Source: an uncultured Methylocystaceae bacterium
GTDB taxonomy: Bacteria; Pseudomonadota; Alphaproteobacteria; Rhizobiales; Beijerinckiaceae
NCBI GenBank assembly: GCA_903870245.1
Contig: CAIQCB010000052.1
Location: 186,001-250,000, forward strand
Length of the DNA: 64,000 nt
Direction: 5' to 3'
Shown here: positions 40,240 through 59,138 of the stretch, in pieces
Layout of the letters: each line of letters begins with the position of its first letter
Numbering within the stretch: the first letter of the stretch is position 1
Notes under the pieces: model-generated
Seen by the model: the letters and a program-made list of their open reading frames with translations, nothing else
What the model was told of the DNA's origin: nothing
Databases searched by the model: none
Made by a program: the position numbers and the translations under genes

Positions 40240-40361
40240 AGTCTACGAATTTCAGGACGGAATCCGTATTTCGCTTAGCTCCGCCCCGTCCTCAAGGCAA
40301 TGCCCAAAAATGTTGCCGATTGGTCACATTCACAGAGAATGAAACAAGCCCTCCCTAATTA

Positions 40362-40375
40362 TTGACTTACATCAA
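40362..40375. promoter_or_regulatory. Putative FNR/FixK-type box TTGACTTACATCAA
   Basis: Matches TTGA-N6-TCAA; upstream of ompW. Confidence 0.55.
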
Positions 40376-40470
40376 ATCATTTTTGCGAAATCCATAGCAA
40401 CGTCCTCTCGACCCGGCGCGACGCGTCGTCGTCGTGTCCGAAGCGAAATTTCTTTTGACGGGGGTTCCAC

Positions 40471-41403
40471 ATGAAAACGTTAGTTCGCGGCGCCATAGCC
40501 GCCATCGCGATGGGGGCCTCTGCGGTCTCCGCTTTCGCGGCCGATTTGCCGACCCGCAAGGAAGCGCCCGTCGTCGTTGACGATTTCCAGCGTTTCCAGG
40601 TCCGCCTGCTCGCTTCAGCCGTTGTGCCGCTGGACGGCACTGCGACGATCTATGATCGCGGAACCGGTTCGCTGATCCCGAATCTCTGGGGCGTCGGCCC
40701 TAACCCCACCACTGTTCTGAACAGCACCGGCTACAGCCTCGGACCGGGCAGCGTTTTCTCTGGCGCCGGAACGACGATCTCCTGGTCAGCAGTGCCGTCG
40801 CTGAGCCTCGGCTATTATCTGAACAAGAACTGGTCGGTTGAGGCGATCTGCTGCGTGACGCCGCATCACGTTCAGGGCACCGGCTCGATCTTCGGCTCCA
40901 GCGTCATCAAGACCTGGGTTTTCCCGCCGTCCCTGACCCTGGTTTATCACTTCACCAATTTCGGTGGTTTCCAGCCCTACCTCGGCGCCGGCGTGAACTT
41001 CACCGCCTTCTGGGGCACCCGCGGCGGCAATCAGCCCTTCCAGTTCCAGTTGCCGGTCGCGCCGACCGCCGTGACCTGGAATACGGCGACCGCCGCCAGC
41101 ATCACCCCGTCGTGGGGCGTGGTCGGCCAGGCTGGCTTCGACTACATGCTGAACCAGAACTGGGGTTGGAACTTCGATCTGAAATACATCATGATGGAGC
41201 CGAACGCGCATGTGTGGGCGACCAACACCGGAACGCCCTTTGGTCCGCTCAGCGTTCCGCTGAATCTGCAGGTCAAGATCAACCCGCTGGTGATGTCGAC
41301 CGGTCTGACCTACCGCTTCGGTGGCAGCAAGGAGCCGGGCATCATAAATACAGCAACGGGCGGCGTTCTCGCCAAGGCCGGCTCGCTCCTGCCGCAGTTC
41401 TGA
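40471..41403 (+). CDS. ompW: OmpW-family outer membrane protein
   Basis: Signal peptide; NWSVEAICCVTPHHV, YHFTNFGGFQPYLGAGVNFTAFW; C-terminal F. Confidence 0.92.
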   Translation: MKTLVRGAIAAIAMGASAVSAFAADLPTRKEAPVVVDDFQRFQVRLLASAVVPLDGTATIYDRGTGSLIPNLWGVGPNPTTVLNSTGYSLGPGSVFSGAGTTISWSAVPSLSLGYYLNKNWSVEAICCVTPHHVQGTGSIFGSSVIKTWVFPPSLTLVYHFTNFGGFQPYLGAGVNFTAFWGTRGGNQPFQFQLPVAPTAVTWNTATAASITPSWGVVGQAGFDYMLNQNWGWNFDLKYIMMEPNAHVWATNTGTPFGPLSVPLNLQVKINPLVMSTGLTYRFGGSKEPGIINTATGGVLAKAGSLLPQF

Positions 41404-41425
41404 TCTTCAATCGCCAACGACAAAG

Positions 41426-41455
41426 AAACCGGCCCCACGCGGGCCGGTTTTTTTT
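41426..41455 (+). terminator. Rho-independent terminator after ompW
   Basis: AAACCGGCCC-CACGC-GGGCCGGTTT TTTTT. Confidence 0.93.
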
Positions 41456-41479
41456 ATTGTCCGATGTCAAAAAATTCCG

Positions 41480-42355
41480 TCAGGCGCTCAATAACTGGCA
41501 CAGGGCGTCGAGTTGATCGAGCGTTTCATAACGCACGCTGATCTCGCCGCCTTCGCCCCGATGACGGATCGAAACCCGCATGCCGAGCGCATCGGACAAT
41601 AATTTTTCCATCGCCCGCGTGTCGGCGTCCGTCCCCGCTCCCGGTTGCGTGGACGATTTGGCGTTTTTCGTGCCCGGCGCCCGCGGGGCCTTGCCGAGCG
41701 ACTCCACGTCGCGCACCGTCAGGCCTTCCTCGACAATCCGTCGCGCCACCGCGTCGGGATGATCGACGGCAAGCAGGGCGCGGCCATGGCCGGCCGAGAT
41801 CGCTCCTTCGCTCAGTAATTTGCGGGTCGCCTCCGGAAGATTGAGCAGACGCAGGGTATTGGCGACATGGGCGCGGCTTTTGCCGATAATCTTGGCGATC
41901 TCGCTTTGCGAATAACCAAACTCCGCCGCCAGCCGCTCATAGCCCTTCGCCTCTTCGATGGCGTTGAGATCGGCGCGCTGGACGTTTTCGATGATCGCGA
42001 GTTCAAGCGCTTCCTTATCGTCGGCCTCCTGAATCACTACCGGCACATCGATCAGTCCGGCGGCCTGCGCCGCGCGCCAGCGACGCTCCCCGGCGATGAT
42101 CTCATAGACGTTTTCGACGCCGATGATCGTGCGCACGAGAATCGGCTGAATAATGCCTTTTTCTCGAATGGAGGCGGTCAATTCAGCGAGATCGGCTTCC
42201 CGGAACTGGGTTCGCGGGTTACGCGGATTGGGCCTGAGAAATTCGATTGGCGCGCGTCTCGGCCCGCGGGCGCGGGCGGGCGCGGGATCGGACGCGACGT
42301 CGCCGAGCAAGGTCGCGAGGCCCCGGCCCAGTCGCCGGCGCGAGTCGTCAGCCAT
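41480..42355 (-). CDS. parB: Chromosome partitioning protein ParB
   Basis: RRRLGRGLATLLGD, YEIIAGERRWRAAQAAG, GHGRALL. Confidence 0.98.
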   Translation of the reverse strand: MADDSRRRLGRGLATLLGDVASDPAPARARGPRRAPIEFLRPNPRNPRTQFREADLAELTASIREKGIIQPILVRTIIGVENVYEIIAGERRWRAAQAAGLIDVPVVIQEADDKEALELAIIENVQRADLNAIEEAKGYERLAAEFGYSQSEIAKIIGKSRAHVANTLRLLNLPEATRKLLSEGAISAGHGRALLAVDHPDAVARRIVEEGLTVRDVESLGKAPRAPGTKNAKSSTQPGAGTDADTRAMEKLLSDALGMRVSIRHRGEGGEISVRYETLDQLDALCQLLSA

Positions 42356-42374
42356 TCCACTCTCCATGCATGAG

Positions 42375-43241
42375 TCAGGCGGCGCGCAGGCGTTTTTCGC
42401 GCTGGATCACTTCCGACGCGAGCTTGAGATAAGCCTGACTGCCAGAACATTTGAGATCGTAAAGCAGCACCGGCTTGCCATGCGACGGAGCCTCCGAAAC
42501 CCGCACATTACGCGGGATCATCGTCTCATAGACCTTGTCGCCCATAAAACGCCGCACGTCCGCAGCGACCTGATTGGCCAGATTGTTGCGCGGATCATAC
42601 ATGGTCAGCACGACGCCATGGATCGACAGATCAGGATTAAGGGATTGCGACACCTGATCGACGGTGGACAGCAATTGCGACAGGCCCTCAAGCGCAAAAA
42701 ATTCACATTGCAAGGGCACCAATACCGCGTCAGCGCTTGCCAGCGCATTGATTGTCAGCAAATTGAGCGAAGGCGGGCAATCGATCAATACATAATCGAA
42801 TCTCGTTCCAGTCCGACCGCCGCCGGCGGCGAGCTCGGCGACAGCGCGTCGCAGGCGGAATGCGCGGTCCTTCTCACCGGAAATCTCCAGTTCAACGCCC
42901 AGCAAATCGAGGGTGGAGGGCGCAATCGACAGACGCGGGACCGCCGTTGGAACGATGGCGTCGGCGAGACTGCTGTCGCCAAGCATAACGTCATAGGTCG
43001 AAATCTTGCGATCCTTGCGGTCGACGCCCAGACCGGTCGAGGCGTTGCCCTGCGGATCGAGATCGACGACCAGCACTTCTTCCCCGACAGCGGCCAGCGC
43101 GGTGCCGAGGTTGATGGCCGTTGTCGTTTTACCGACGCCGCCCTTCTGGTTGGCGAGGACAAGAGTCCGCGGTCCGGTTTTTTGAGAGGTCACGTTTGGT
43201 CCCGGGGACACGCCGCTCCCGGTTTCAGGACCGGCCGACAA
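42375..43241 (-). CDS. parA: Chromosome partitioning ATPase ParA
   Basis: LANQKGGVGKTTTAINLGTAL. Confidence 0.98.
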   Translation of the reverse strand: MSAGPETGSGVSPGPNVTSQKTGPRTLVLANQKGGVGKTTTAINLGTALAAVGEEVLVVDLDPQGNASTGLGVDRKDRKISTYDVMLGDSSLADAIVPTAVPRLSIAPSTLDLLGVELEISGEKDRAFRLRRAVAELAAGGGRTGTRFDYVLIDCPPSLNLLTINALASADAVLVPLQCEFFALEGLSQLLSTVDQVSQSLNPDLSIHGVVLTMYDPRNNLANQVAADVRRFMGDKVYETMIPRNVRVSEAPSHGKPVLLYDLKCSGSQAYLKLASEVIQREKRLRAA

Positions 43242-43860
43242 TGATCAATCGGGCGTCCGGGTCGGTGCGGCTATCAATAGTACGATAAGTGACGTTATCT
43301 TTCGCGCTGGCGAGGGTCAATTCGTTTCGCCAGTCAGCCCCTTTCAAAAAGACGCCAATCGCCCGCTTTTCCAGAGAAAGCCGCATCATATCCACAAGGC
43401 CCGTCAGCGGCGCCAGGGCGCGGGCGCTGATCGCCTCGGGAGCCGGAGACAAATCCGCAAGAATATCCTCGATTCGGCCGACGTGAATTTGCGCCGGCGC
43501 CGCTGTTTCACGTGAAACAGCTCGCAAGAACGCAGCCTTGCGCTGATCGCTCTCGATCAAATGAACAACCACGCCGGGAGCGTCCTTGAGAAGCAGGGCC
43601 GTCACCAGGCCAGGAAAACCGGCGCCCGATCCAAGATCCGCCCATAAACGCGCCTCGGGAGCGACCGCCTGGACTTGCGCCGAGTCGGCGAAATGGCGCG
43701 TCCAGATCTGATCGAGCGTCCCGGGCGCTATGAGGTTGATGGTTTTCTGCCAGCGACGCAGCAACTGCTCATAGAGCCGCAATTCCGGGAGGATGGCGGC
43801 AAGAGACGGGCACATAGCCAGGGCCCGTTCGCAGTCGCCGGGTTTGGGAGCTGACGTCAC
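43225..43860 (-). CDS. rsmG: 16S rRNA (guanine527-N7)-methyltransferase
   Basis: [19 protein letters not shown]; between parA and mnmG. Confidence 0.97.
43504..43519. promoter_or_regulatory. parS: parS site, perfect TGTTTCACGTGAAACA, inside rsmG
   Basis: 16-bp palindrome identical to the canonical parS consensus. Confidence 0.95.
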
Positions 43861-45755
43861 GCCCGACGGGCCCGCGCCGCCAGCAACGTCAAAGCCGAAG
43901 GGGTCATGCCGTCGATCCGCTGCGCCTGACCAATGGTGCGCGGCCGCAGAAAAGCGAGTTTACCGCGCAGTTCCGCCGAAAGACCGGCGATGGCGTCGTA
44001 ATCCAGCGTATCCGGCAGTTTCAGCTCCTCGTCGCGGCGAAAGGAGTCAATATCGGCCTGCTGCCGATCCAGATAAACCGCGTAGCGCGCATCTGTTTCG
44101 AGCCGCGCGGCGGTTTTGGCGTCAATCGCCGACAATTCCGGCCAGATCGTCGTAAGCCGCTTCAGCGTGATGTCCGGAAAAGCGAGAAGCGTAAAGGCGC
44201 TGCGCCGCTGACCGTCCTGATTGATCGGCAGGCCCTGACGCGCCGCCGCCGAGGACGTGAGGGAAAGGCTGTCGAGCAGCGTCCGGGCCCGCCGCTTTTT
44301 CTCGGATTGATCGGCGTAGTGCGCGGCGCGTATCGCGCCAATGCACCCGATCGACATCCCGCGGGGCGTCAATCGTTCGTCGGCGTTATCGGCGCGCAGC
44401 GACAGCCGGTATTCAGCGCGCGAGGTGAACATACGATAGGGCTCGCTGACGCCGCGCGTCACCAGATCGTCGATCATGACGCCAAGATAGGCTTCGGCGC
44501 GATCGAAGATCTCTGGCCCCTTGCCGGCGGCATGCCGCGCCGCGTTCAGCCCGGCGACGAGACCCTGGGCGGCCGCCTCCTCGTAGCCGGTGGTGCCATT
44601 GATCTGACCAGCGAAAAACAGGCCGGCGAAAATTTTGGTTTCAAGGCTCGGAAGAAGCGCCCTTGGATCGATATAGTCGTATTCGATGGCGTAGCCGGGC
44701 TGGAGAATGGCGACGGACTCAAGACCGGGAATGGCGCGAACGAAGGCTTCCTGCGTGGCGCGCGGCAGCGAGGTTGATATGCCGTTGGGATAGACGGTGT
44801 CGTCGTCCAGCCCCTCCGGTTCAAGAAAAATCTGATGTCCGTCACGGTCGCCGAACCGGATGATCTTGTCCTCAATGGAGGGACAATAGCGGGGACCTGA
44901 ACCGGTGATCGCCCCGGTATGGAGCGGGGAGTTGTGCAGATTGGCGCGGATCGCGGCATGAACCGCCCCGGTCGTGCGGGTGATGGCGCAGGCGATCTGA
45001 CGATTGACGATCCGGGTCGTCAGCGCCGAGAAGGGCTCCGGCTCGTCGTCACCCCATTGCGGCTCCAGATCCTCCCAGCGAATCGTCCGACCATCGAGCC
45101 GCGGCGGCGTGCCGGTCTTCAGCCGGCCCAGCGGAAATCCTGCGGCGCGCAAGCGCCGTGACAATCCCTGCGCCGGCGGATCGCCCATGCGGCCGGCCGG
45201 AAAACGCTCTTCGCCAATGTGAATCACGCCGCCAAGAAATGTGCCGGTGGTCAACACCACAGCGGCGGCGCGGATCGTCTCGCCGCTGGCGGTGACGACG
45301 CCTGCGATACGATCGTCCTCGACGATCAGATCCTCGACCGACGTTTCAACAACCTGAAGGTTTTCCTGCTCTGCGATCGCGCTTTGCATCGCCACGCGGT
45401 AAAGCTTGCGGTCGGCCTGGGCGCGGGGACCCCGCACGGCCGGTCCCTTGGATCGGTTGAGCAGGCGAAACTGGATACCGGCGGCGTCGGCGACCCGACC
45501 CATCAGACCGTCGAGGGCGTCGATTTCGCGTACGAGCTGACCTTTTCCAAGCCCGCCAATCGCCGGATTGCAGGACATGACGCCGATGCTGGCGCGCGAA
45601 TGAGTAACAAGCGCTGTGCGGGCGCCGAGCCGGGCGGCCGCCGCCGCCGCTTCACAGCCGGCGTGTCCGCCGCCGACGACGATCACATCGTAATTATCCC
45701 CCGGAAGCGAATTTGGCATTGGATGAGGTTTCGGCGTCTGTTTCACGTGAAACAT
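43857..45755 (-). CDS. mnmG: tRNA uridine 5-carboxymethylaminomethyl modification enzyme MnmG (GidA)
   Basis: [46 protein letters not shown]. Confidence 0.98.
45739..45754. promoter_or_regulatory. parS: parS site, perfect TGTTTCACGTGAAACA, overlapping the mnmG start
   Basis: 16-bp palindrome; on - strand contributes to ATG TTT CAC GTG AAA CAG (MFHVKQ). Confidence 0.96.
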
Positions 45756-45761
45756 TCATAC

Positions 45762-47075
45762 TCATTTTCCGATGCAGAAACGAGAAAAAACAGCGTCCAG
45801 AATATCCTCGACATCGACCGAGCCGACAATCCGACCCAGAGCCCAGGCGGCGCGCCGCAAATCTTCTGCGACCAATTCGAGCGGCTTGTCCTGTAGGGAG
45901 GCCGCCGTTATCGCAGCATGGGCCGCCTGCGTCGCGGCGCGGTGCCTGACGCGCGCGAACAGCGCGCTATCGCCATCGCCCAGCCGCGCGCGCGCCCGTG
46001 CGCCAATCTCGGCGAGCAGCGCCTCCAGTCCCATGCCCGTTGGAGCGCTCAGCGGCAGCCACCCCGGCGGGGGGCGTGCGAGATCGCATTTGGAGGCGAC
46101 GCGCAAAATGTCGGTCGCAGCGGCGATCGTCTCCGGCGGCCCCCGTCCCTCGGGCGACAGCCAAATCGCCAGATCGGCCGCATCAACCGCGTCGAACACC
46201 CGTGCGACGCCGAGCTTCTCGATTTCGTCCAGGGCGTCGCGCAGGCCAGCCGTGTCGACCACGGTCACCGGCATCCCCTCCAGGTCGAGATGCGCCTCAA
46301 TCATGTCGCGGGTGGTGCCGGCGTGCGGCGACACAATCGCCAGATCGCGCTGCGTCAAAGCGTTGATCAGGGTGGATTTTCCGGCGTTCGGCGGCCCCAG
46401 GATCATGACCCGGAAACCGTCGCGCATGCGTTCGCTGGCTGGATTGTCTTGCAGGGCGACGGCGATCTCGTCACAAATCGTCGCCAGCAAAGGATCGAGC
46501 CGGCGCCGGTCGAAAACATCGACATCGGCTTCGTCGGAAAAATCCAGTTCAGCTTCCACCAGCGAGAGCGCCTCGATCAAGAGCTCGCGCCAATGTTCGA
46601 CCTTGCGTCGCAACGCGCCGCCCGCAAGGCGCAACGCCTGTCGCCGCTGGGCTTCGGTCTGCGCCTCGATCAGATCGGCGAGCGCTTCCGCCTGCGAGAG
46701 ATCGAGCTTGCCGTTAATAAAGCCGCGTCGGACAAATTCTCCGGGATCGGCGGGGCGTAGACCGGACTGGCGCGCGAGGGACGCCAGAACCCCCTCGACC
46801 ACGGCCCGTCCGCCATGGATTTGAAACTCGGCGTAGTCTTCGCCGGTCGCGCTCGTTGGGGCCGGGAAATACAGAACGATGCATCGATCCAACAACTCGC
46901 CGCTGCCGGGATCGCGCAGCGCAGCGTAACGGGCGACGCGCGGCGCCGGCAATTCTCCGGCCATTTTCTCGACGATGCTCGATGTCTGTGGCCCGGACAA
47001 CCGGACAATCGCGATAGCGGCCTTGCCGATCCCGGCGCCGGGCGCATAGATGGTGGCCGAGGTCGCCTCAGACAT
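45762..47075 (-). CDS. mnmE: tRNA modification GTPase MnmE
   Basis: ATIYAPGAGIGKAAIAIVRLSG, GPPNAGKSTLINALTQRD, C-terminal FCIGK. Confidence 0.98.
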   Translation of the reverse strand: MSEATSATIYAPGAGIGKAAIAIVRLSGPQTSSIVEKMAGELPAPRVARYAALRDPGSGELLDRCIVLYFPAPTSATGEDYAEFQIHGGRAVVEGVLASLARQSGLRPADPGEFVRRGFINGKLDLSQAEALADLIEAQTEAQRRQALRLAGGALRRKVEHWRELLIEALSLVEAELDFSDEADVDVFDRRRLDPLLATICDEIAVALQDNPASERMRDGFRVMILGPPNAGKSTLINALTQRDLAIVSPHAGTTRDMIEAHLDLEGMPVTVVDTAGLRDALDEIEKLGVARVFDAVDAADLAIWLSPEGRGPPETIAAATDILRVASKCDLARPPPGWLPLSAPTGMGLEALLAEIGARARARLGDGDSALFARVRHRAATQAAHAAITAASLQDKPLELVAEDLRRAAWALGRIVGSVDVEDILDAVFSRFCIGK

Positions 47076-48048
47076 CACCCGACCCCGTCGGCTCGCTGCG
47101 CGCCGGCGCAACGACGGTCCCGCCGAGCAGTTTTTGACGGTAGATGCGCCGGAAGGCCAGTGTCGGCGCATCAGTGCGCACCGAGGCCTCCTGTCCCCCC
47201 AATGGAATCACGGCTGGCAGCGACGACTCGACGATCTGCTGGTCTTCGCGCGCAATACGTCGGTTCATCCAGCGAAACACGGGATCGAGCAGGGAGGATC
47301 GGGCGAAATTACGCGCCGTCAGCAGCACCAGCCGGGTCGTCGCCTCGTCCTCCGGAATGCAAATCGCCGAGAGTCTCAATAATTTGCCGGGCGGATCGAT
47401 AAACAGCTCCATGGCGTTGGGATAACGATATTCGAGGTGGCTCGGGCGCGGCGCGCCATCGACCTTGCCCCAAACCCTCGCGCCGAAAGGCTGTTCCTCC
47501 CACGCGAGGTCCATCCGTCGCCCGCCCGCAGGACCGACCTGTTTGCCAATCGTTTTGCGGTGCACAAAAGGCAGATGCGGCATATCGAGCATATTCTCCA
47601 TGACTCGCGTCCAATGCGCCCGCCAGGTCACGCATTGACCGCACACAACTGCGTTACGAAGCAAAAACGTATCGGAAACAGACGGTTCCAGGGTGGGCTC
47701 GAAACCGGTGAAGAGCCACAGCAAACCGCCGGCCTCGCGAACCGGCAGCGCATGAGCGCCGAGATGATCGGTTTTGGCGTCCGGATTCCAGGGCACATGA
47801 CAATTGCGCCCGGCGCCGTCGAAGCGCCAGCCATGGAAGGGGCATTCGATTTCGCCGTGGCTGACGCGCCCGAGCGAAAGGGCGACGCCGCGATGGGGGC
47901 ATTGATCCATCAGCGCCACGGCCTTACCAGCGCCGTCGCGGAAAAACACGACGCGTTCGCCGGCCACACGCATCGCCAGCGGCTTGCCAGCGATCACATC
48001 GCTGGCAAGACCAACGATGGTCCAGACATTGGCGAAGTTTTCGAACAT
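47068..48048 (-). CDS. Rieske [2Fe-2S] oxygenase, vanillate demethylase/ring-hydroxylating-like
   Basis: Rieske motif CPHRGVALSLGRVSHGEIECPFHGW; 8-nt overlap with the mnmE start. Confidence 0.9.
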   Translation of the reverse strand: MFENFANVWTIVGLASDVIAGKPLAMRVAGERVVFFRDGAGKAVALMDQCPHRGVALSLGRVSHGEIECPFHGWRFDGAGRNCHVPWNPDAKTDHLGAHALPVREAGGLLWLFTGFEPTLEPSVSDTFLLRNAVVCGQCVTWRAHWTRVMENMLDMPHLPFVHRKTIGKQVGPAGGRRMDLAWEEQPFGARVWGKVDGAPRPSHLEYRYPNAMELFIDPPGKLLRLSAICIPEDEATTRLVLLTARNFARSSLLDPVFRWMNRRIAREDQQIVESSLPAVIPLGGQEASVRTDAPTLAFRRIYRQKLLGGTVVAPARSEPTGSGDV

Positions 48049-48059
48049 CGAGCCTCCTT

Positions 48060-48720
48060 GCCATCGCGCCGAATGAGTCGCAATCCGGGATCGTTTTCGA
48101 CGACGACCTTTCGATGACCGCGCCCTCTCAGCAACGCGTCGCCGAGCGCCGGACAAAAAAACCACGCCGAGGTCGAGGCGGCGAAAAAGCGCTGGAAGAC
48201 GCGACGACCATCGGCGCCGTAAACGCCCAATCTTAAACGCATGCGACTTACGACGCACTGCGCGACGAATTCACCAAAATCATTCCCGACGGCGCGGCAA
48301 CAAATCGAAAGGCTGGACTGCAATAAAACGAGCCCTGAAAAACGACTGCAAGAAAGATATATCGCACCCGGAAGTCGCAGAAGTCGCGGATCAACTCTAT
48401 AGGGGCGCGCTGGCCGCAATATTCAAAAAAACTGCTGTGCAATAAAGATGAAAACCCGATCTATATTCTTCACGGGCTTGATGGCCAGGTAATGACTTAC
48501 CGGCAACCTCTGCCCGTCTTTATAAAACGCGCGACAACGCCTCAAGGCCCATCGAAGAGATGCTGGAACCTCGAAACAAACCGGACTGTTCCGTCTCCGC
48601 CGTTCACACGGCGGCGTACAAGGGCCTTATCCTCGAAATCAACCAAGAGGCGAAGAAATACCACCAGCCGAAGAGCGCGAAGAGCGAAGCCTACAAGACG
48701 AAATAAACTTCGCAGCCTGC
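48060..48720 (+). pseudogene. Probable decayed ORF region with several frame-broken coding-like fragments
   Basis: Fragments such as KGWTAIKRALKNDCKKDISHPEVAEVADQLYRGALAAIFKKTAVQ* and RPIEEMLEPRNKPDCSVSAVHTAAYKGLILEINQEAKKYHQPKSAKSEAYKTK* in different frames. Confidence 0.4.
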
Positions 48721-48721
48721 G

Positions 48722-49990
48722 TTAGGTATTCATCGAGTCGAAGAACGCCTGATTGCCCTTCGGCGTCTCGCGCAGCTTGCCGAGCAGGAATTCGATGGCG
48801 TCGACGGTGCCCATCGGATTGAGGATACGGCGCAGCACGTACATTTTCTTCAAAATGTCCGGCGCCACCAGCAAATCTTCCTTGCGGGTGCCGGAGCGGG
48901 TGATGTCCAGCGCCGGGAAAACGCGCTTGTCGGCGACCTTGCGGTCGAGAATGATCTCGCTGTTGCCGGTGCCCTTGAACTCTTCGAAAATCACTTCGTC
49001 CATGCGCGAACCGGTGTCGATCAGCGCGGTGGCGATGATGGTGAGCGAGCCGCCTTCCTCGATATTGCGCGCGGCGCCGAAGAAGCGCTTGGGCCGCTGC
49101 AAGGCGTTGGCGTCGACGCCGCCGGTCAGCACCTTGCCGGAAGAGGGCACCACGGTGTTGTAGGCGCGCCCCAGTCGCGTGATCGAATCCAGCAGGATCA
49201 CCACGTCGCGGCGATGTTCGACGAGGCGCTTGGCCTTCTCGATCACCATTTCGGCGACCTGCACATGGCGCACGGCCGGCTCGTCGAAGGTCGACGACAC
49301 GACCTCGCCGCGCACCGAGCGCTGCATGTCGGTGACTTCCTCCGGCCGCTCGTCGATCAGCAGCACGATCAGATAGCATTCCGGATGATTGGTGGTGATC
49401 GATTGCGCGATGTTTTGCAGCAACACGGTTTTACCGGTGCGCGGCGGCGCCACGACCAGCGCGCGCTGGCCCTTGCCGATGGGCGCGACGAGATCGATGA
49501 TGCGGGACGACAAATCCTTACGGGTCGGATCGTCGATTTCGAGCTTCAGCCGTTCGTCGGGATAGAGCGGCGTTAAGTTGTCGAAGGGCACCTTGTGGCG
49601 CACCTTCTCCGGGTCCTCGAAATTGATCGTATTGACCTTGAGCAGCGCAAAATAGCGCTCGCCCTCCTTCGGACTGCGGATCATGCCCTCGACGGTGTCG
49701 CCGGTGCGCAAGCCGAATTTACGAATTTGCGACGGCGAGACGTAGATATCGTCCGGCCCGGCGAGATAATTGGCGTCCGACGAGCGCAGGAAACCAAAAC
49801 CGTCCTGCAACACCTCGACCACCCCCTCGCCGACGATCTCGACGTCGCGGCTGGCGAATTGCTTCAAAATGGCGAAGAGCAACTCCTGCTTGCGTAACAG
49901 CGAGGCGTTTTCGACCTCGTGTTCTTCGGCGAAAGCGAGAAGTTCGGCGGCGGATTTAGACTTTAAATCCGAAAGTTTGATTTCCGGCAT
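48722..49990 (-). CDS. rho: Transcription termination factor Rho
   Basis: [42 protein letters not shown]. Confidence 0.98.
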
Positions 49991-50152
49991 TAGCGCCTTC
50001 GGCAGACAAGGTTGAGGATGGGAAATTGCAGAGACGGGAGAAGCCCATGCGCCGAAAATACACGGCGGTCGCTGGAAACGACGGTCTGCGATCAGGTAAG
50101 GAGGGGAGCAATATACGCTTTCTGGACGCCACGCAAGCGTCCGGCGGCAGGA

Positions 50153-50575
50153 TCAAAAAGGCTTCACGATCACCAAAATGACGATGCCAATCATCAGCAG
50201 GGTGGGCGCTTCGTTAATCACCCTGTAATAACGCGATCCGTGACGGTTCGAATCTTCGGCGAAGCTGCGTAGCAGGAAACCGTCGTGGACATGCGCGGCG
50301 GTCATCGCCAAAACCAGCAACGCCTTGCCATGGAACCAGCCAGCGGAAAAAGCGCCGCTATCCCAGGCCAGATACAGACCGGTCAGCCAGGAGACGGTCA
50401 TTGCCGGATTCATAATGTAACGATAGAGGCGGCGCTCCATGATCTTGAAGGTCGCGGATGGCGGCCCCGCCGGACCGCATTCGGCATGATACACGAAAAG
50501 TCTTGGTAAATATAACAGACCCGCCATCCAGGAGATGATGGCGATCACATGCAGGGACTTAATCCAGAGATACAT
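50153..50575 (-). CDS. hemJ: Protoporphyrinogen oxidase HemJ (CopD-like)
   Basis: LWIKSLHVIAIISWMAGLLYLPRLFVYHAE, RYYRVINEAPTLLMIGIVILVIVKPF; adjacent to hemE. Confidence 0.95.
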   Translation of the reverse strand: MYLWIKSLHVIAIISWMAGLLYLPRLFVYHAECGPAGPPSATFKIMERRLYRYIMNPAMTVSWLTGLYLAWDSGAFSAGWFHGKALLVLAMTAAHVHDGFLLRSFAEDSNRHGSRYYRVINEAPTLLMIGIVILVIVKPF

Positions 50576-50585
50576 GTCGCGCGCC

Positions 50586-51620
50586 TCAGGATCGACTGGC
50601 GCGCACGCGCGCCAGCAAACGCTCGACATGTTCGATTGGCGTTTGCTGCAAGATGCCGTGGCCGAGATTAAAAATATGCGGCCGGCCGGCGAAGGCGCCG
50701 AGGATATAATCGATTTCCCGATCCAGCGCCGCACCGCCGGCGACCAGCGCCAGCGGATCGAGATTGCCTTGCAATACGGTTGATGGCGAGGTCTGCGCCA
50801 CAGCCCATACGGGGTCGAGAGCCGTATCCAGCCCATAGGCTTCAGCCCCGAGAGTGCGGGTCAGATGCGGCAGTTGCGCGTCGGCCCCGCGCACAAAAGC
50901 GATGACCGGCGTTTGCGGGCGTTGCTGCTTGAGGGCCGCAACGATCCGGGCGATGGGTCCCGACGACCAGCTGGCGAATTCATTGGCCGGCAATACGCCG
51001 GCCCAGCTATCAAAAATCTGCACCGCTTCGACGCCGGCGTCGATCTGCCGAACAAGATAGCTCACCGAGGCGTCAATCAACCGCTCGATGAGCCGTTCGA
51101 ATGCCTGCGGATGGCGGAAGGCGAAAAGCCGCGCCGGTGCCTGGTCCGGCGTGCCCTGACCGGCGATCATATAGCTCGCCACTGTCCATGGCGCCCCGCA
51201 AAAACCGATGAGGGCGACATCCGCCGGCAACGCCGATTTCACCCGGTCGATGGTTTCGAACACCGGGTCGAGCTTTCCAAGATCGAAGGAATTCAACCGA
51301 TCGACAGCTTCCGGCGTCTCGATCGGATCGAGCCTCGGACCATGCCCGGTTTCGAAAGAGACTGTCTGTCCCATGGCGTCGGGAACAACGAGAATGTCGG
51401 AAAACAGGATCGCCGCGTCGAAGTGATACCGCCGGATCGGCTGCAGGGTTACCTCCGCCGCCATTGCCGGATTGTAGCAAAAGTCCAGAAAACTTGTCGC
51501 CTTAGACCGCAAGGCTCTGTATTCCGGCAGATAACGACCTGCCTGACGCATCAGCCAGATCGGCGGAATATCCTGAGACTGTCCCCGCAGGGTGGCGATC
51601 AGCGGCTTCGACCCGGACAT
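50586..51620 (-). CDS. hemE: Uroporphyrinogen decarboxylase
   Basis: PPIWLMRQAGRYLPEYR, FCGAPWTVASYMI, NLGHGILQQTP. Confidence 0.98.
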   Translation of the reverse strand: MSGSKPLIATLRGQSQDIPPIWLMRQAGRYLPEYRALRSKATSFLDFCYNPAMAAEVTLQPIRRYHFDAAILFSDILVVPDAMGQTVSFETGHGPRLDPIETPEAVDRLNSFDLGKLDPVFETIDRVKSALPADVALIGFCGAPWTVASYMIAGQGTPDQAPARLFAFRHPQAFERLIERLIDASVSYLVRQIDAGVEAVQIFDSWAGVLPANEFASWSSGPIARIVAALKQQRPQTPVIAFVRGADAQLPHLTRTLGAEAYGLDTALDPVWAVAQTSPSTVLQGNLDPLALVAGGAALDREIDYILGAFAGRPHIFNLGHGILQQTPIEHVERLLARVRASRS

Positions 51621-51744
51621 TTCCAACCAGCTCCCAGACGTTCGATACGATTGGCAGTAACGCGAAACCCCAAAAAACAAAAATTTGAAATTAAAAATTG
51701 ATTCTTATGTTTCTGTACGCCCCAAAAACGTGGGCGCATAGTCG

Positions 51745-51759
51745 TTAACAGTTTGTTAA
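51745..51759. promoter_or_regulatory. CtrA box TTAACAGTTTGTTAA (TTAA-N7-TTAA)
   Basis: Exact full-length CtrA consensus. Confidence 0.8.
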
Positions 51760-51858
51760 CACCCCTGCCTTGCGGGACAGCTTGTCGCCGAAACGATCCG
51801 CATGGGTGGGATTGTTCGGAAAATTCCTTTTGAATCATTATCATAGCTAATTTTATTC

Positions 51859-51867
51859 TGTGTAAAA
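51859..51867 (-). promoter_or_regulatory. DnaA box TTTTACACA (fits TTWTNCACA)
   Basis: + strand tgtgtaaaa. Confidence 0.6.
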
Positions 51868-51894
51868 ACGGTGGGTAAGTTTCTCGTCCGATGG

Positions 51895-51903
51895 TGATTC
51901 ACA
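51895..51903 (+). promoter_or_regulatory. DnaA G-box-like site TGATTCACA, includes a GANTC site
   Basis: One mismatch to the Caulobacter G-box TGATCCACA. Confidence 0.4.
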
Positions 51904-52061
51904 TGCTGGATCGCTAGAGAGGGAGAAACGGCGACATCGAGTTTCCTGTTGATGGCGAGGTCGGCTTATCACCCCTCGTTCACAGGCCCATCGGATTATC
52001 GATCAATCTATCCCCACTGTTCGATTTTGTGCGCAAGGCTCCACAAGGTTCCGGGACGAAA

Positions 52062-52697
52062 ATGAAGGACAGGGCCAATCCGCTCCGCAGCTCATTCTGG
52101 ACAGGCGGCGCCCCGCTGATTCTCGCCTCGGCGAGTCTCGGGCGCCAGATAGTCTTGCGGCAGGCGGGTCTGCCCTTCGAGGCGCGACCGGCGCAAATCG
52201 ATGAACGCGCGATTGAAGCCTCGCTTGGAAATGTCGCCGCAGATGTCGTCGCCGCCGCTCTGGCTCGCGCCAAGGCGTTGGCGGTTTCCGATCTGTCCGG
52301 CGACCGATGGGTCATCGGCGCCGATCAGGTCGCGAGCTGCGAGCGACGCATGTTCGGCAAATCCCCGAATCGGGAAGCCGCCGCCGAGCTTTTGCGTTTT
52401 CTGTCTGGTCGCACCCATCGGCTGCACAGCGCGGTTGCGCTTGTTCGATCCGGCGAGGTTGTGTTCGAGACAGTGGCGCACGCGGATCTGGAAATGCGCG
52501 TCCTGAGCGAAAGCTTCATCAACGCCTATCTCGACGCGATGGGAGATGCAGCGTTGTCCAGCGCTGGCGCCTATCAGGTCGAGGGTCTGGGCGCACAGCT
52601 GTTTTGCCAGGTTCGCGGCGATCATTGGACGATCATGGGATTGCCTGTCTTGCCCTTGTTGGAGGCCATGCGACAGGCGGGAGTTGCGCTGACGTGA
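52062..52697 (+). CDS. maf: Maf-like nucleotide pyrophosphatase
   Basis: [41 protein letters not shown]. Confidence 0.95.
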
Positions 52698-53311
52698 GAG
52701 CTGAAAAAATCCTGCGCGTCGGACTGACGGGTTCGATTGGCATGGGCAAGTCAACCACGGCGCAACTATTTCGCGACCAGGGGATCGCGGTGCTCGATTC
52801 GGATCGCGTGGTGCATGATCTCTATTGCGGCGCCGCCGTCGCGCCCATCGCCGCCGCCTTTCCCGGCGTGGTCGTCGACGGCGTCGTCGATCGCGGCCGG
52901 CTCGGCGCGCGCGTGCTTGGCGATCAGGCGGCGATGGAAAGGCTTGAGGCCATCGTTCATCCGCTCGTCTGGGCGGCGCGCGACGCTTTCATTGAAGAGC
53001 GCGCCAGCCGCGGCGACTGGATCGTCGTCTACGACGTCCCCCTGTTGTTTGAGACCCGGACGGACAAAAGCGTTGATGCGATCATCGTCGTCACGGCTTC
53101 GCCCGAAGAACAAAGAAAGCGCGTTCTGGCCCGACCGGGCATGACGACGGAAAAGTTCGAGGCGATCGTCGCCAAACAGACGCCCGACGCCGAGAAACGC
53201 GCCCGCGCCGATTTCGTTGTGGACACCGGCGCCGGTCTGGATGCGGCGAAAGCACAGGTGCGGCATATCATCGAAACACTGCGCGAGCGATCGCGCTGGG
53301 ATGGCCTTTAA
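52694..53311 (+). CDS. coaE: Dephospho-CoA kinase, GTG start overlapping the maf stop
   Basis: [30 protein letters not shown]. Confidence 0.96.
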
Positions 53312-54009
53312 TGCGCGCGATTGTCTTCGATACGGAAACCACGGGACTCGATCCTGCTCAGGGACATCGCATTGTCGAAATCGGCGCGATAGAAATCTCC
53401 AACCTCATCGCGACAGGGCGAGTGTTTCACGTCTATGTCGATCCCGAACGCGACATGCCTGAGGAAGCGTTTCGCGTGCATGGATTGTCCCGCGAATTTC
53501 TTGCCGATCACAGGAATTTTGCCGGCGTCGTCGATGACTTTTTGACGTTCATCGAAGATTTGCCGCTCATCGCGCATAACGCCGAATTTGATGTGCGTTT
53601 TCTCAACGCAGAATTCGCCAAACTCGATCGTCCGCCGCTCGATCCATCGCGGATCGTCGACACATTGGCGATGGCGCGGCGCCTGCATCCGGGCAGTCCG
53701 TCGTCTCTGGACGCGTTATGCCAGCGTTATGGAATCGATCTCTCGCGTCGCGATAAACATGGCGCCTTGCTTGACGCCGGTTTGTTGGCCGACGTTTACG
53801 CAGAGCTGATGGGCGGCCGTCAGGCGGCGCTTTCCTTGCAAACCGTCGCCGTTAACCGGCTGGCCGGGCAGTCAGACTTGCTCACCGCGCGCCCGTCTCC
53901 CTTGGCGACGCGCCTGAGCGACGCGGAGAGGGCGGCGCATCAGGAGTTCGTCGCCGGCATGTCAAAAGCGCCCCTCTGGGATCGTTACGGAGCCGCCGAC
54001 AAGTCGTAG
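53311..54009 (+). CDS. dnaQ: DNA polymerase III subunit epsilon
   Basis: [28 protein letters not shown]. Confidence 0.98.
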   Translation: MRAIVFDTETTGLDPAQGHRIVEIGAIEISNLIATGRVFHVYVDPERDMPEEAFRVHGLSREFLADHRNFAGVVDDFLTFIEDLPLIAHNAEFDVRFLNAEFAKLDRPPLDPSRIVDTLAMARRLHPGSPSSLDALCQRYGIDLSRRDKHGALLDAGLLADVYAELMGGRQAALSLQTVAVNRLAGQSDLLTARPSPLATRLSDAERAAHQEFVAGMSKAPLWDRYGAADKS

Positions 54010-54042
54010 CGTCGCCCGGGCGTGTATCGGGGCCGCGAAGGA

Positions 54043-54528
54043 TCAGTTGGCGCGGGCGACGTTCGCTTCGCCGCTGGCTGCGCGCTGCTGATACAAGGAA
54101 AGAAAATCGATCGGATCGATGAACAGCGGCGGGAAACCGCCGTCGCGCGTCGCATCGGCGACAATCTGGCGAACGAAGGGAAACAAAAGCCGCGGACACT
54201 CGATGAGAACGATCGGCTGAATCTGATCTGCTGGAATGTTGATCAGGCGAAAGATGCCCCTGTAGTCGAGATCGAGTTTGAACAGGAGCGACTCGTTCTC
54301 GCCCGCCTTGACGTCAACGGTCAGGGAGACTTCGTAATCGGACTGGGCGATCTGCGTCGCGCCGACATTTACTTGTAAGGAAATGTTGGGCTGTTTCTCC
54401 TGCGGTCCGAGCGAGCGGGGCGCGTTTGGATTTTCGAACGACAGGTCCTTTACGAACTGGACCAGCCCGTTCAGGGCCGGGGCGCCATTCGATCCGACCT
54501 GGCCGCCGTTCGATTGTGTGTCGCTCAT
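54043..54528 (-). CDS. secB: Protein-export chaperone SecB
   Basis: QFVKDLSFENPNAP, ECPRLLFPFVRQIVADATRDGGFPPLFIDPIDFLSLY. Confidence 0.98.
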   Translation of the reverse strand: MSDTQSNGGQVGSNGAPALNGLVQFVKDLSFENPNAPRSLGPQEKQPNISLQVNVGATQIAQSDYEVSLTVDVKAGENESLLFKLDLDYRGIFRLINIPADQIQPIVLIECPRLLFPFVRQIVADATRDGGFPPLFIDPIDFLSLYQQRAASGEANVARAN

Positions 54529-54642
54529 CAAATCTCTCCGTAGAATCTCGCGGCGGTTTCGTCCGCGCAAGCGTTGGGGCCCGCCTAACACGTCTCGCCC
54601 GCCCTCACAAGAACGCCGCGCTCGCCTGCGTCGCGCCGATAA

Positions 54643-55203
54643 TCAGACGGAACCCGCCCGCCTGCGTCGCGCCGGACGTTTGGGCTGATCGACGCTTCGA
54701 TAGTCGTGTGGCGTCAGATCGATCACGGACGGGTCGACCTGGTTGTCACGCGTGTCGCGCGCGCCGCCGATATTCGTCCATCGTCGCGCCAGCCCGTCCC
54801 GCACCGAGGGAGATTTCAGCGCGAGCCCGGCCAAATCGGTGACGAAACCCGGGAGAATCAGCAAGAACGCGCCCAGCGCCGACAGGCCGCTGTCATGGAG
54901 CGGGCCCTTGCGGTTTTCTCTCGTTTCGCCGCCGCCGCAGAAGACCAGCAGGCGTCGGATGTCGGAGAGACCTTGCAACGTCGTCGCCAGAGCCAGGACG
55001 AGGGTCGCAAGAAAGCCGAGCGTGTGCACCACGAGGAAGAAAGCCAGAAGTTCAAGGCCGATCCAGATGGCGACGTAATAGCCCAGCCGTCTGGGATCGA
55101 TGTTGAGCGCGCCAGTTGCTTGCGGCGCGCTCGCCCGCAGTAGTTTCAGGATCGTGTCAAACGGCGGTAGGGTCAAAATTCGGGGTCCGATGCTGAGGGT
55201 CAA
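54643..55203 (-). CDS. fxsA: FxsA family membrane protein
   Basis: FLLILPGFVTDLAGLAL and TM topology; opposite the Tim44-family gene. Confidence 0.85.
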   Translation of the reverse strand: MTLSIGPRILTLPPFDTILKLLRASAPQATGALNIDPRRLGYYVAIWIGLELLAFFLVVHTLGFLATLVLALATTLQGLSDIRRLLVFCGGGETRENRKGPLHDSGLSALGAFLLILPGFVTDLAGLALKSPSVRDGLARRWTNIGGARDTRDNQVDPSVIDLTPHDYRSVDQPKRPARRRRAGSV

Positions 55204-55290
55204 GAGACTGCGGCGAAAGGTCCCGCCCTTGATTCGTGACAGGGTCGGATCGACATGTTAGCCGACGGCAACAAATCAAGGGAACAAACA

Positions 55291-55983
55291 ATGGCCCCGA
55301 GTGGCGAAGTTTTCGATCCGTCGCTGATCGTGTTTGCGGCCCTGGCCGTGTTCATCATCTGGAAATTACGTTCCGTTCTTGGCGTGCGCATTGATCGTGA
55401 GACGCCGCCGCAGGCTCGGTTCGAGCCGTTTCAACCGCCGGCGCGCGCTGCCTCTGGCGGTTCAAATCCCGGCGCCGTCGCGCGCCCGGGTCAGAGCGAG
55501 CTTCCCGCGACATGGGAGGGCGTGGCGGATACAGACAGCGCGCGCGCCGGACTCGATGCCGTGGCCGCCGCTGATCGCCGTTTCGACGGCCTGCAGTTTC
55601 TCGACGGGGCGCGCCGCGCCTACGAAATGATCGTCGAAGCTTTCGCCCGCGGCGATCGCGAGGCCTTGCAGCCGTTGTTGTCGAAAGAGTCTTTTGAGGG
55701 ATTCGACGCTGAAATTTCCCGGCGCGAGGCGGCGGGCGAGAAGCTCGAAACCGCTGTTGTGGCTATGGACTCCGCCAAAATCGTCGAGGCCGCCGCCGCC
55801 CCGGGTCGCATTGAGGTGACGGTGCGTTTCGATGCGCGCGCGCAGATGACCCGCCGTAATCGTGAGGGCGAGGTGATCGACGGCGGCCGCACCTTGCCCA
55901 TCATCGAGTTGTGGACCTTCGCGCGTGATCCGCGCGCAACGGATCCGAACTGGAGACTGGTGGCCACGCGACCGGCGGAATGA
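55291..55983 (+). CDS. Tim44/TimA-domain protein
   Basis: Single TM then ARRAYEMIVEAFARGDREALQPLLSKESFEGFDAEISRREAAGEK. Confidence 0.93.
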   Translation: MAPSGEVFDPSLIVFAALAVFIIWKLRSVLGVRIDRETPPQARFEPFQPPARAASGGSNPGAVARPGQSELPATWEGVADTDSARAGLDAVAAADRRFDGLQFLDGARRAYEMIVEAFARGDREALQPLLSKESFEGFDAEISRREAAGEKLETAVVAMDSAKIVEAAAAPGRIEVTVRFDARAQMTRRNREGEVIDGGRTLPIIELWTFARDPRATDPNWRLVATRPAE

Positions 55984-55987
55984 CCTT

Positions 55988-57079
55988 GTGTCCTGTCCTG
56001 CGGCCGAACTGAGCCCCGTCGCTTTTGGATCGCTGACAGGATTTGACGCCGACGACCTTGATGAAGCCTTCGCCGTCTTTCGACGGTCGGCGGAGAGATT
56101 GATCGCCGGCCTTCCTGCGCAAAGGCCTGCTTGCCCGCCTTCTGCCGGACTGATCCGCGCCGCCAGAGCGGCAATGACCTGGCAGATGACGGGCGGCAGT
56201 TTTTTTCGTCATTGGTTCAGGCCATTCCGGATTTCGAAACCCGGCTTTGTCACAGCTTACTACGAACCGGTATTCGATGCCCGGTTGACACGGCAACCAG
56301 GATTCGAAACCCCGGCGCTGGCCCGGCCGGCGGATCTGGCGACGCTTAACGACAGGCCGTTGATCTTGCCGTCTGGCGAACGCCTGACCGCCGCGCGCCG
56401 CGCCGCCGATGGCGCGCTCAGCCCTTATCCGGACCGGCGCGCCATCGAAAACGAAGGCGCGGCGACCGGCGCCAAACCCATCGCCTATTTACGTGATCCG
56501 CTCGACGCTTTCCTGCTTCAGGTGCAGGGATCGGGGCGTCTGCGTTTGGCGGATGGCGCAACCTTGGCGCTTACCTATGACGGCCGAAATGGCTGGCCCT
56601 ACACGTCGATCGGCAGGCTGTTGATCGAACGCGGCCATGCGATGGCCGGGGAAATGACGCTCGACTGTCTCAAAGCGACGCTGAACCAGCTGGGTTTGGA
56701 AAATAATGCGCCGGGACGACAGCTGATGCAGGAGAATCGTTCATATGTTTTTTTCAAAATTGATGATTCGCCCGAGCGTTTGTTCGGCCCGATCGGCGGC
56801 GCCGGATGCCCTCTAACGCCATTGCGCTCCATCGCTATTGATCGCGGCCTGTGGTGTTATGGTCTCCCCTTCTGGATCTCTGCGCGCGTTCCATGGAAGA
56901 AGGAATCCGAAACGCGACTGGAGCGCATGATGATCGGACAGGACACGGGATCGGCGATCGTCGGGCCGGCGCGGGCCGATCTCTTTTTTGGCGCGGGCGA
57001 AATGGCCGGTCATCTGGCTGGCCGGGTGCGTCATGCGGCTGAAATGACCGTATTTTTGCCGGTGGATGATGCGTCATGA
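55988..57079 (+). CDS. mltA: Membrane-bound lytic transglycosylase A
   Basis: GFVTAYYEPVFDARL, FLLQVQGSGRLRLADG, GQDTGSAIVGPARADLFFG; GTG start inferred. Confidence 0.94.
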   Translation: MSCPAAELSPVAFGSLTGFDADDLDEAFAVFRRSAERLIAGLPAQRPACPPSAGLIRAARAAMTWQMTGGSFFRHWFRPFRISKPGFVTAYYEPVFDARLTRQPGFETPALARPADLATLNDRPLILPSGERLTAARRAADGALSPYPDRRAIENEGAATGAKPIAYLRDPLDAFLLQVQGSGRLRLADGATLALTYDGRNGWPYTSIGRLLIERGHAMAGEMTLDCLKATLNQLGLENNAPGRQLMQENRSYVFFKIDDSPERLFGPIGGAGCPLTPLRSIAIDRGLWCYGLPFWISARVPWKKESETRLERMMIGQDTGSAIVGPARADLFFGAGEMAGHLAGRVRHAAEMTVFLPVDDAS

Positions 57080-57651
57080 GCAACGGCGCGCGTCGTCCCC
57101 CGCGTCGGTTGACGCCGGGCGAAATTGAACTCTGGGGCGTTGTCACGGCGGATGTGCGTCCCATTGGTCCTATGCGTTTTCGGCCTGTAGCCGAACCTGT
57201 GACGCCGGCGCCCGAAACTTCTTCTCCCTCTCATCATGAGGTCGTCGAACGGCGACACGACCCCGCGCCGCTCCGATCGTCCTCGCCGGCTCCTGTCCCT
57301 GCGCCCCGCATCAGCGATCTCGATTACCGGACGCGGGCGAAAATCAAGCGTGGCCGGCTCGACGTCGACGCCAAACTTGATCTCCACGGCATGCGTCAGG
57401 ATGAGGCGCAACGCGCGCTATACGCTTTCCTGAGACGCTCGCAGGCGTCCGGCGCGAAAGTGGCCATCGTCGTCACCGGCAAGGGGCTTTCAAGGGAAGA
57501 TGGCGGCGTGTTGCGCCGGCAGGTCCCGATGTGGCTGCAGGCGCCGGCGCTGCGCGACGTCGTCGTTTCGTTCGGAGAGGCGGCGCGCCGCCACGGCGGC
57601 GAAGGCGCGCTTTATGTCCGCATCAGACGCGCCGATCGCGCGCGGGGATAG
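57076..57651 (+). CDS. Smr/MutS2-domain protein
   Basis: AKLDLHGMRQDEAQRALYAFLRRS, VVTGKGLSREDGGVLRRQVPMWL. Confidence 0.94.
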   Translation: MSNGARRPPRRLTPGEIELWGVVTADVRPIGPMRFRPVAEPVTPAPETSSPSHHEVVERRHDPAPLRSSSPAPVPAPRISDLDYRTRAKIKRGRLDVDAKLDLHGMRQDEAQRALYAFLRRSQASGAKVAIVVTGKGLSREDGGVLRRQVPMWLQAPALRDVVVSFGEAARRHGGEGALYVRIRRADRARG

Positions 57652-57730
57652 GAAATCGCCGATTCATTTCCCTGTTCGATCGATACAGCAAAAGGGAAAG
57701 CTTCTTATTTTGTCGCGCTCTTTTCGACGT

Positions 57731-57758
57731 CCCGTTTTCCGGATCGCTGGAAAACGGG
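57731..57758. terminator. Strong hairpin abutting the HemY stop codon
   Basis: Perfect 10-bp inverted repeat CCCGTTTTCC-N8-GGAAAACGGG; no clear U-tract. Confidence 0.55.
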
Positions 57759-59138
57759 TCAGGGTGTCGGACCAGCAATTTCCAACGTTTCGCCCGGAAT
57801 GGCCCTGACGGTTGAGGCAAGGGCGGGCTGCGACTCTTCCGCCACAAGCGGCGTCGAATCCGGCGGGGCCTTCCATTCGAAAGCGTCAAGGCGTCCGGTC
57901 GCAGGCGAGATCGGCAGCCAGTGTTTCGAGGCGACGTTATCGGCGAGCCAGACCGGATCGCGCGGCGCGCGGCTCGCGCGCGCCAGCCATTCGCGAACCG
58001 GTCCGCTGGCGCCGTTTTCCCCTTCCTCGATTTCGGCCATCAGCAGACAGGCCAGGGCGGTCGGATTTTGGCCGCTCGCCGTCATCGGCGCCAATGCGTC
58101 GCGCGCTTTGACGAAATCGCGCGCCGAGAGCGCCGCCTGCGCCAGCAGTAACCGGCTTTCCGGCGCGTTGGGGGCGAGGCGCGCGAGCTTTTCGACGCGG
58201 GCGAGACGCCCGCTGTTGGATTCGCCCGACAAGGCGTCGAGATAAAGCGCGCCGAGTTCGGGGTGTGGATGTTTCCCCCAGATCGATTCGATGAGCTTGA
58301 GAGCCTGCTTGACGTCGTTGTGGCGAATGAGCGCCCGTGTCGCCACCGCCGCCGCCGGGGGAAAGCCGGGACGGCGTTTCAACGCCTGACGCGCCAAATG
58401 CAAGGCGTCGTGCGGGTGATCGCGCTCTTTCTCCATAGCCAGAGCGGTTTCGATCACGGCCCGGTGCTTCTGAGCGGTTTCAAGATCGATCGCCTTCGCC
58501 AGCAGGCTAGCCTCGACCGACTCCCGCGCCTTTTCCCAGTCGCCCTGGACGGCGTGATGTTCGAGGATCGCTGCCCCGGCCCATGGCACTGGCGCCAGAT
58601 CGTGGGCGGTTTTTGCGAAATGGTGCGCCGCCTCCGGATCGCTTCGCCGCTTCGCCTCAATATGCAGGCCGCGCAGGCCCAGAAGCTTCGTGTCCGGTTG
58701 CAGCGTCATCTTGTGAAAGGCTTTGGCGGCTGCAAGCTGGTCGCCGCCGAGCTGCGCCGCCTGCGCGGTCAGCATGTGCGTCAACGGTTCTTCCGGAACG
58801 AGTTTTTGCGCAAGTTTGGCGGCTTTCCTGGCTTTCGCGAGATCGCCCGAACCCACCGCGACGAGACCCTGCGAGAGAACGTCGAGTCCGCGCGCGCGGC
58901 GGCGTTCGCGACTGTCGCCGATCACTCGACCAGGCAGACGCCAGACTGCGACGATGATGGCCCAAAGGACAATAATCGTCGCGACGGTGAGCAATAGACC
59001 GGCGATCGCCACCGGCAGCGAAGCCTCCATATGCCAGCGGCCGAATTCCAGCGTAATTCCGCCGGGCTGCTGGATCAGCCATTCGAGTCCGAAGGCGGCG
59101 ATAGCTAGTCCGAGGATAAAGATCAGGAGAAACCACAT
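57759..59138 (-). CDS. hemY: HemY N-terminal domain/TPR membrane protein
   Basis: MWFLLIFILGLAIAAFGLEWLIQQPGGITLEFGRWHMEASL; TPR-like body. Confidence 0.93.
   Translation of the reverse strand: MWFLLIFILGLAIAAFGLEWLIQQPGGITLEFGRWHMEASLPVAIAGLLLTVATIIVLWAIIVAVWRLPGRVIGDSRERRRARGLDVLSQGLVAVGSGDLAKARKAAKLAQKLVPEEPLTHMLTAQAAQLGGDQLAAAKAFHKMTLQPDTKLLGLRGLHIEAKRRSDPEAAHHFAKTAHDLAPVPWAGAAILEHHAVQGDWEKARESVEASLLAKAIDLETAQKHRAVIETALAMEKERDHPHDALHLARQALKRRPGFPPAAAVATRALIRHNDVKQALKLIESIWGKHPHPELGALYLDALSGESNSGRLARVEKLARLAPNAPESRLLLAQAALSARDFVKARDALAPMTASGQNPTALACLLMAEIEEGENGASGPVREWLARASRAPRDPVWLADNVASKHWLPISPATGRLDAFEWKAPPDSTPLVAEESQPALASTVRAIPGETLEIAGPTP

Follow-up and report, generated by a model that had tools for sequence, protein, structure and literature searches.

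The 441-bp gap (51621-52061) from which hemE (-) and maf-coaE-dnaQ (+) diverge very probably contains the chromosomal origin of replication, oriC, and it holds a consensus site, TTAA-N7-TTAA, that the regulator CtrA probably binds. The window, the 64,000-nucleotide stretch of DNA analysed here, occupies bases 186001-250000 of a 261-kb contig (C52) that belongs to a 3.2-Mb draft genome. Because its HemE shares 79% identity with that of Methylocystis sp. Sn-Cys and 70% with that of a Methylosinus, we took the host to be a Methylocystis-like type II methanotroph and infer the genus name from these identities. The gap has a GC content of 46.7%, compared with approximately 62% around it, and its flanking genes matched NCBIfam models for hemE, a Maf-like protein, dephospho-CoA kinase and dnaQ. 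Farther left of hemE lie rho, hemJ, mnmE, mnmG, an rsmG-like frame, and ParA- and ParB-like frames; the names rsmG and parA come from sequence and position, without a model match, and the sole match of the ParB-like frame was to a related nucleoid-occlusion model, with a score below its cut-off. In most of the order, ppsR (PF03618, kinase-PPPase) sits between hemE and maf; it was absent in all 15 genomes of this genus that were tested, as it was in three more genomes whose hemE-maf gap is approximately 400 bp. An Rfam scan of window positions 40000-58000 returned no match, which leaves a CcnA-like RNA there without support.

The original prediction had placed oriC between hemE and maf, and this assignment is strongly supported by GC skew, parS sites, synteny and conserved blocks. 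The cumulative GC skew of the contig has its minimum at 234881 (window 48881), which puts it at a distance of 2.9 kb from the CtrA box. The genome contains exactly two parS sites, 6-8 kb from the gap, and ten relatives likewise have exactly two each, all less than 20 kb from hemE. Skew was also determined from 20-kb samples in two relatives: in G021 (one contig) the best origin fell at 2.11-2.18 Mb, with hemE at 2.23 Mb (permutation p at hemE of 0.0005), and in G009 (4.3-Mb main contig) it fell at 2.82-2.98 Mb, with hemE at 2.99 Mb (permutation p of 0.003). In these two genomes, the sign change of both GC skew and GGGNAGGG polarity falls at hemE and not at dnaA. Because this sampling gives a resolution of approximately 0.1 Mb, the placement of oriC in exactly the hemE-maf gap comes from the contig skew, parS, synteny and conserved elements. 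Both parS sites overlap genes, and the copy at the start of mnmG encodes part of MFHVKQ.

We consider it very improbable that the origin lies at dnaA or elsewhere and that the hemE-maf gap is merely an ordinary divergent promoter. Such an arrangement would suit the numbering of several relative assemblies, which starts at dnaA, and this lineage has a weak skew of approximately 0.01. However, an origin at dnaA was rejected in G021 and G009, where skew and GGGNAGGG polarity are zero or of the wrong (negative) sign at that gene, and all 11 genomes have parS close to hemE. In the two relatives measured, dnaA and hemE are approximately 1.3-1.5 Mb apart. Numbering starts at dnaA in four assemblies (G021:C1:2012, G009:C6:1949, G024:C1:1213 and G008:C1:1222), so base 1 in these is not the origin. 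The location at hemE is thus of use for methanotroph genetics (plasmids) and for reading dnaA-numbered assemblies, which do not begin at the origin.

All of the motifs listed in the original prediction are present in the gap (Table 1). As a chance model we used 5,000 dinucleotide shuffles of the gap, in which TTAA-N7-TTAA arose in 1.1% and at least one TTWTNCACA in 5.1%; DnaA boxes alone are therefore weak evidence, and the CtrA box is the sole motif that stands out. GANTC is not enriched, and its count is uninformative because at least three sites arose in 35% of shuffles. Although the genome encodes a CcrM-type methylase, the predicted control through GANTC and CcrM thus gains nothing from a number of sites that is at chance level. 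Neither TTATCCACA nor its one-mismatch forms occur in the gap, which holds four two-mismatch sites of TTATCCACA and two conserved box-like blocks. The IHF consensus was not found in the gap.

Table 1 Features of the predicted origin and its flanks, in window coordinates
Feature	Position	Strand	Basis or remark
parS (TGTTTCACGTGAAACA)	43504..43519		One of two in the genome; inside the rsmG-like frame 43225-43860
parS	45739..45754		Overlaps the mnmG start
hemE, uroporphyrinogen decarboxylase, left flank	50586..51620	-	TIGR01464 above cut-off; ATG at 51618-51620
Predicted oriC-containing region between hemE and maf	51621..52061		Genes, contig skew minimum, parS, skew flips in two relatives
A/T-rich tract adjoining hemE, candidate DNA unwinding element	51671..51700		Sequence; A-rich block conserved in the genus
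GANTC sites	51700, 51832, 51896		Sequence
GGTTAATTTTCGTTAAC block of relatives (TTAA-N6-TTAA, N7 in two species)	51732..51751		First half-site lost here (GGGCGCATAGTCGTTAAC)
TTAACAGTTTGTTAA, CtrA consensus TTAA-N7-TTAA	51745..51759		First half-site conserved in the genus; second where relatives have TGCCCACAGG
TTTTACACA, putative weak DnaA box	51859..51867	-	Relatives carry TTCTCCACA / TCATCCACA there
TGATTCACA, putative DnaA box	51895..51903	+	Resembles the Caulobacter G-box TGATCCACA
CCTGTTGAT (reads ATCAACAGG), DnaA-box-like	51945..51953	-	98% conserved 8-mer; spacing to the next box constant across several families
CTATCCCCA, where Microvirga and others have the canonical DnaA box	52008..52016	+	Contains the Caulobacter W-box TCCCCA
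maf-like gene, right flank	52062..52697	+	NF002690 / TIGR00172 matches; ATG at 52062

To compare the origins within the group, we aligned 26 Methylocystis and Methylosinus hemE-maf gaps and scored conservation on 15 representatives. Few blocks are conserved in an otherwise diverged gap: an A-rich block (51674-51688), GGTTAATTTTCGTTAAC (51732-51751), TGCCCACAGG (51754-51764), CCTGTTGAT (51945-51953) and TATCCCC (52008-52018). Conservation was strongest in the CCTGTTGAT and TATCCCC blocks, both of which the original prediction had missed. The starts of the motifs TGTTGA and TATCC[AC] are separated by 59-62 bp in 14 further origins from several families (61-62 bp in the genus), and every other distance up to 200 bp occurred at most once. 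The second box takes the form (C/T)TATCCACA, a regular DnaA box, in Microvirga and others, and TATCCCC in Methylocystis/Methylosinus. TGTTGA and TATCC[AC] (window 51947-52014; L037, L056, L060-L070, L093, L186 and L197) are probably a DnaA-box pair.

The CtrA box is one of 23 copies of TTAA-N7-TTAA in the 3.2-Mb genome. Approximately 10 bp upstream of its position, 18 of the 26 aligned gaps carry TTAA-N6-TTAA and two species carry N7, and this TTAA block of the relatives is mostly followed by a DnaA-like box (TGCCCACAGG). In the species of the window, that block has lost its first half-site, and the place of the former DnaA-like box is taken by a new second half-site. A TTAA pair at this block is kept in 21 of 26 genus origins; the exact box of the window is species-specific, being found neither in the nearest relative nor in most of the genus among the 26 gaps aligned. 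Genome-wide, N6 pairs are rarer than N7 pairs (3 versus 18 in G021, 8 versus 25 in G009 and 15 versus 23 in the window's genome). The perfect CtrA box of the original prediction therefore stands as a real and rare consensus in a genome that encodes CtrA, but not as a site shared with sister species. That CtrA probably binds it is supported indirectly, because CtrA is present, the box is rare and the 7-bp spacing recurs upstream of hemE across families.

Outside the genus we compared 83 origins of the order, and in 27 of them TTAA-N7-TTAA lies no more than 450 bp upstream of hemE; spacings of 5, 6 and 8 occurred in 1, 6 and 1 of the same origins, and 1.15 Mb of flanking DNA contained no TTAA-N7-TTAA copy. 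Because the pattern was first noticed in these data, we put it to a second test with 40 additional genomes (one or two from each family), 38 of which were non-duplicates. The N7 form was upstream of hemE in 14 of the 38, from 14 families, and every other spacing in 0-4; as related genomes are not independent, neither 27/83 nor 14/38 is to be read as a probability. N7 is missing from all 24 origins named Rhizobium, Sinorhizobium, Ensifer, Shinella, Neorhizobium, Pararhizobium or Ciceribacter, in agreement with published work in which the origin of S. meliloti is free of CtrA (PMC4433202). According to a 2015 review, alphaproteobacterial origins beyond Caulobacter and possibly Rickettsia are without CtrA sites (PMC4468827), and the effect of CtrA on initiation in S. 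meliloti, whose origin has no sites, is open (PMC4433202, PMC11500502). A hemE-side origin with CtrA sites is already a known kind. That it recurs in many families of an order presumed to be without such sites appears to be unreported in the papers searched, which cover few subscription journals, and a search for literature on Methylocystis with CtrA or origins found nothing for this genus. A spacing-specific box in many families suggests that the well-studied rhizobia are possibly the exception, and the families that carry it are named targets for testing. We tentatively propose, as a possible but doubtful history, that a CtrA box beside the hemE-side origin dates far back in the order and was lost in Rhizobium, Sinorhizobium and close kin, the very group on which the view that it is absent was built; that Methylocystis remodelled it from N7 to N6; that this species came back to a new N7 over a former DnaA site; and that most of the order gates initiation directly by CtrA.

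Sinorhizobium meliloti belongs to the same order, and its oriC reportedly lies beside hemE, as does the origin described here. The S. meliloti origin has no CtrA sites and no CtrA binding (PMC4433202), whereas the window's origin has a CtrA consensus, and the relatives of S. meliloti keep strong DnaA boxes that the window's origin does not have. Caulobacter crescentus Cori also lies beside hemE and shares TTAA-N7-TTAA, an A/T tract and weak DnaA sites, namely the G-box-like TGATTCACA and the W-box TCCCCA (Caulobacter G-box and W-box sequences from PMC4285127). Cori has five CtrA boxes, whereas the window's origin has one, and the latter differs further in its right neighbour, maf, in that no IHF consensus was found and in the placement of dnaA, which is far from the origin in relatives. 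Hyphomonas neptunium belongs to a different order, and the CtrA site in the window is a predicted one. In Wolbachia, hemE is likewise the boundary gene of the origin; Rickettsia and Wolbachia origins share predicted CtrA and DnaA boxes with ours (PMC1914354), but these bacteria are intracellular and the neighbouring genes are others. A search of plasmids with HemE yielded no origin that could serve for comparison.

From the computed position of the origin, the presence of CtrA and the conservation of the elements, we infer DnaA and CtrA binding, a melting site and gating as follows. DnaA would assemble on weak, non-consensus boxes, those at 51859 and 51895 and the pair of CCTGTTGAT (51945) and CTATCCCCA (52008), and would melt the A/T tract beside hemE. 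Phosphorylated CtrA would occupy 51745-51759, with the A/T tract on one side and the DnaA boxes on the other, where the bound protein would hinder DnaA assembly and delay initiation until CtrA is removed. The CtrA-gated control put forward in the original prediction is plausible in that CtrA and the N7 box are both present, and weakened by the restriction of the exact box to one species; we give direct gating by CtrA at this origin slightly less than an even chance. The exclusion of DnaA by CtrA at the Caulobacter origin (PMC4468827) is a precedent, and ChIP-seq in Hyphomonas counts in favour of CtrA at the origin (PMC7200025). Counting against gating, the origin has a single box compared with the five of Caulobacter, removal of the CtrA sites from the Caulobacter origin disturbed the cell cycle only mildly (PMC4468827), and CtrA does not bind the origin in S. 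meliloti (PMC4433202) or Brucella (PMC2877005).

Two explanations, one without a role for CtrA and one in which it acts through hemE transcription, are close rivals to gating. If the TTAA pair were a by-product of an A/T-rich, fast-changing block, DnaA alone would set initiation at this oriC, as in Rhizobium. We regard this as rather unlikely: a TTAA pair persists at the block in most genus origins, as described above, and other families show a strong excess of the N7 spacing upstream of hemE, although the box is not common to sister species, half-site registers shift within the genus, the shuffles do yield such a pair at the low frequency given above and the S. meliloti origin is not CtrA-bound (PMC4433202). 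Alternatively, CtrA at oriC might mainly control the transcription of hemE (or maf), with an indirect effect on replication. The box lies 125 bp upstream of the hemE start, in the divergent promoter region, and repression of hemE transcription is among the functions of CtrA within the Caulobacter origin (PMC8959179); however, the box is placed among conserved DnaA-like elements and the TTAA block of relatives abuts a DnaA-like box, and we consider a mainly transcriptional role distinctly unlikely.

CtrA itself is encoded on the same contig as the window (NF045991, 422.9 bits against a cut-off of 350). Its DNA-binding part is identical at 88 of 102 residues to what we take to be the Caulobacter CtrA sequence, and the phospho-acceptor D51 is kept. 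The 600 bp before ctrA contain no TTAA pair at a spacing of 6, 7 or 8. Other N7 sites of the genome precede ftsK, a cell-wall amidase gene and a PBP1-type gene, positions that are in keeping with their being CtrA targets. The site upstream of the PBP1-type gene is TTAAGGGCCGGTTAA (G000:C52:122049-122063, L162); this 15-mer also occurs in G021, on the opposite strand, and G009 has a one-base variant or the same form. An autoinducer synthase gene has another TTAA-N7-TTAA immediately ahead of it (G000:C23:7450, L155), and a link between CtrA and quorum sensing through this box is possible. Triple arrays of the form TTAA-N6-TTAA-N6-TTAA, phased at 10 bp, recur in the genus, at L225:1455-1478 (near a flagellin gene), at L224 and in the origin of G012 (L005).
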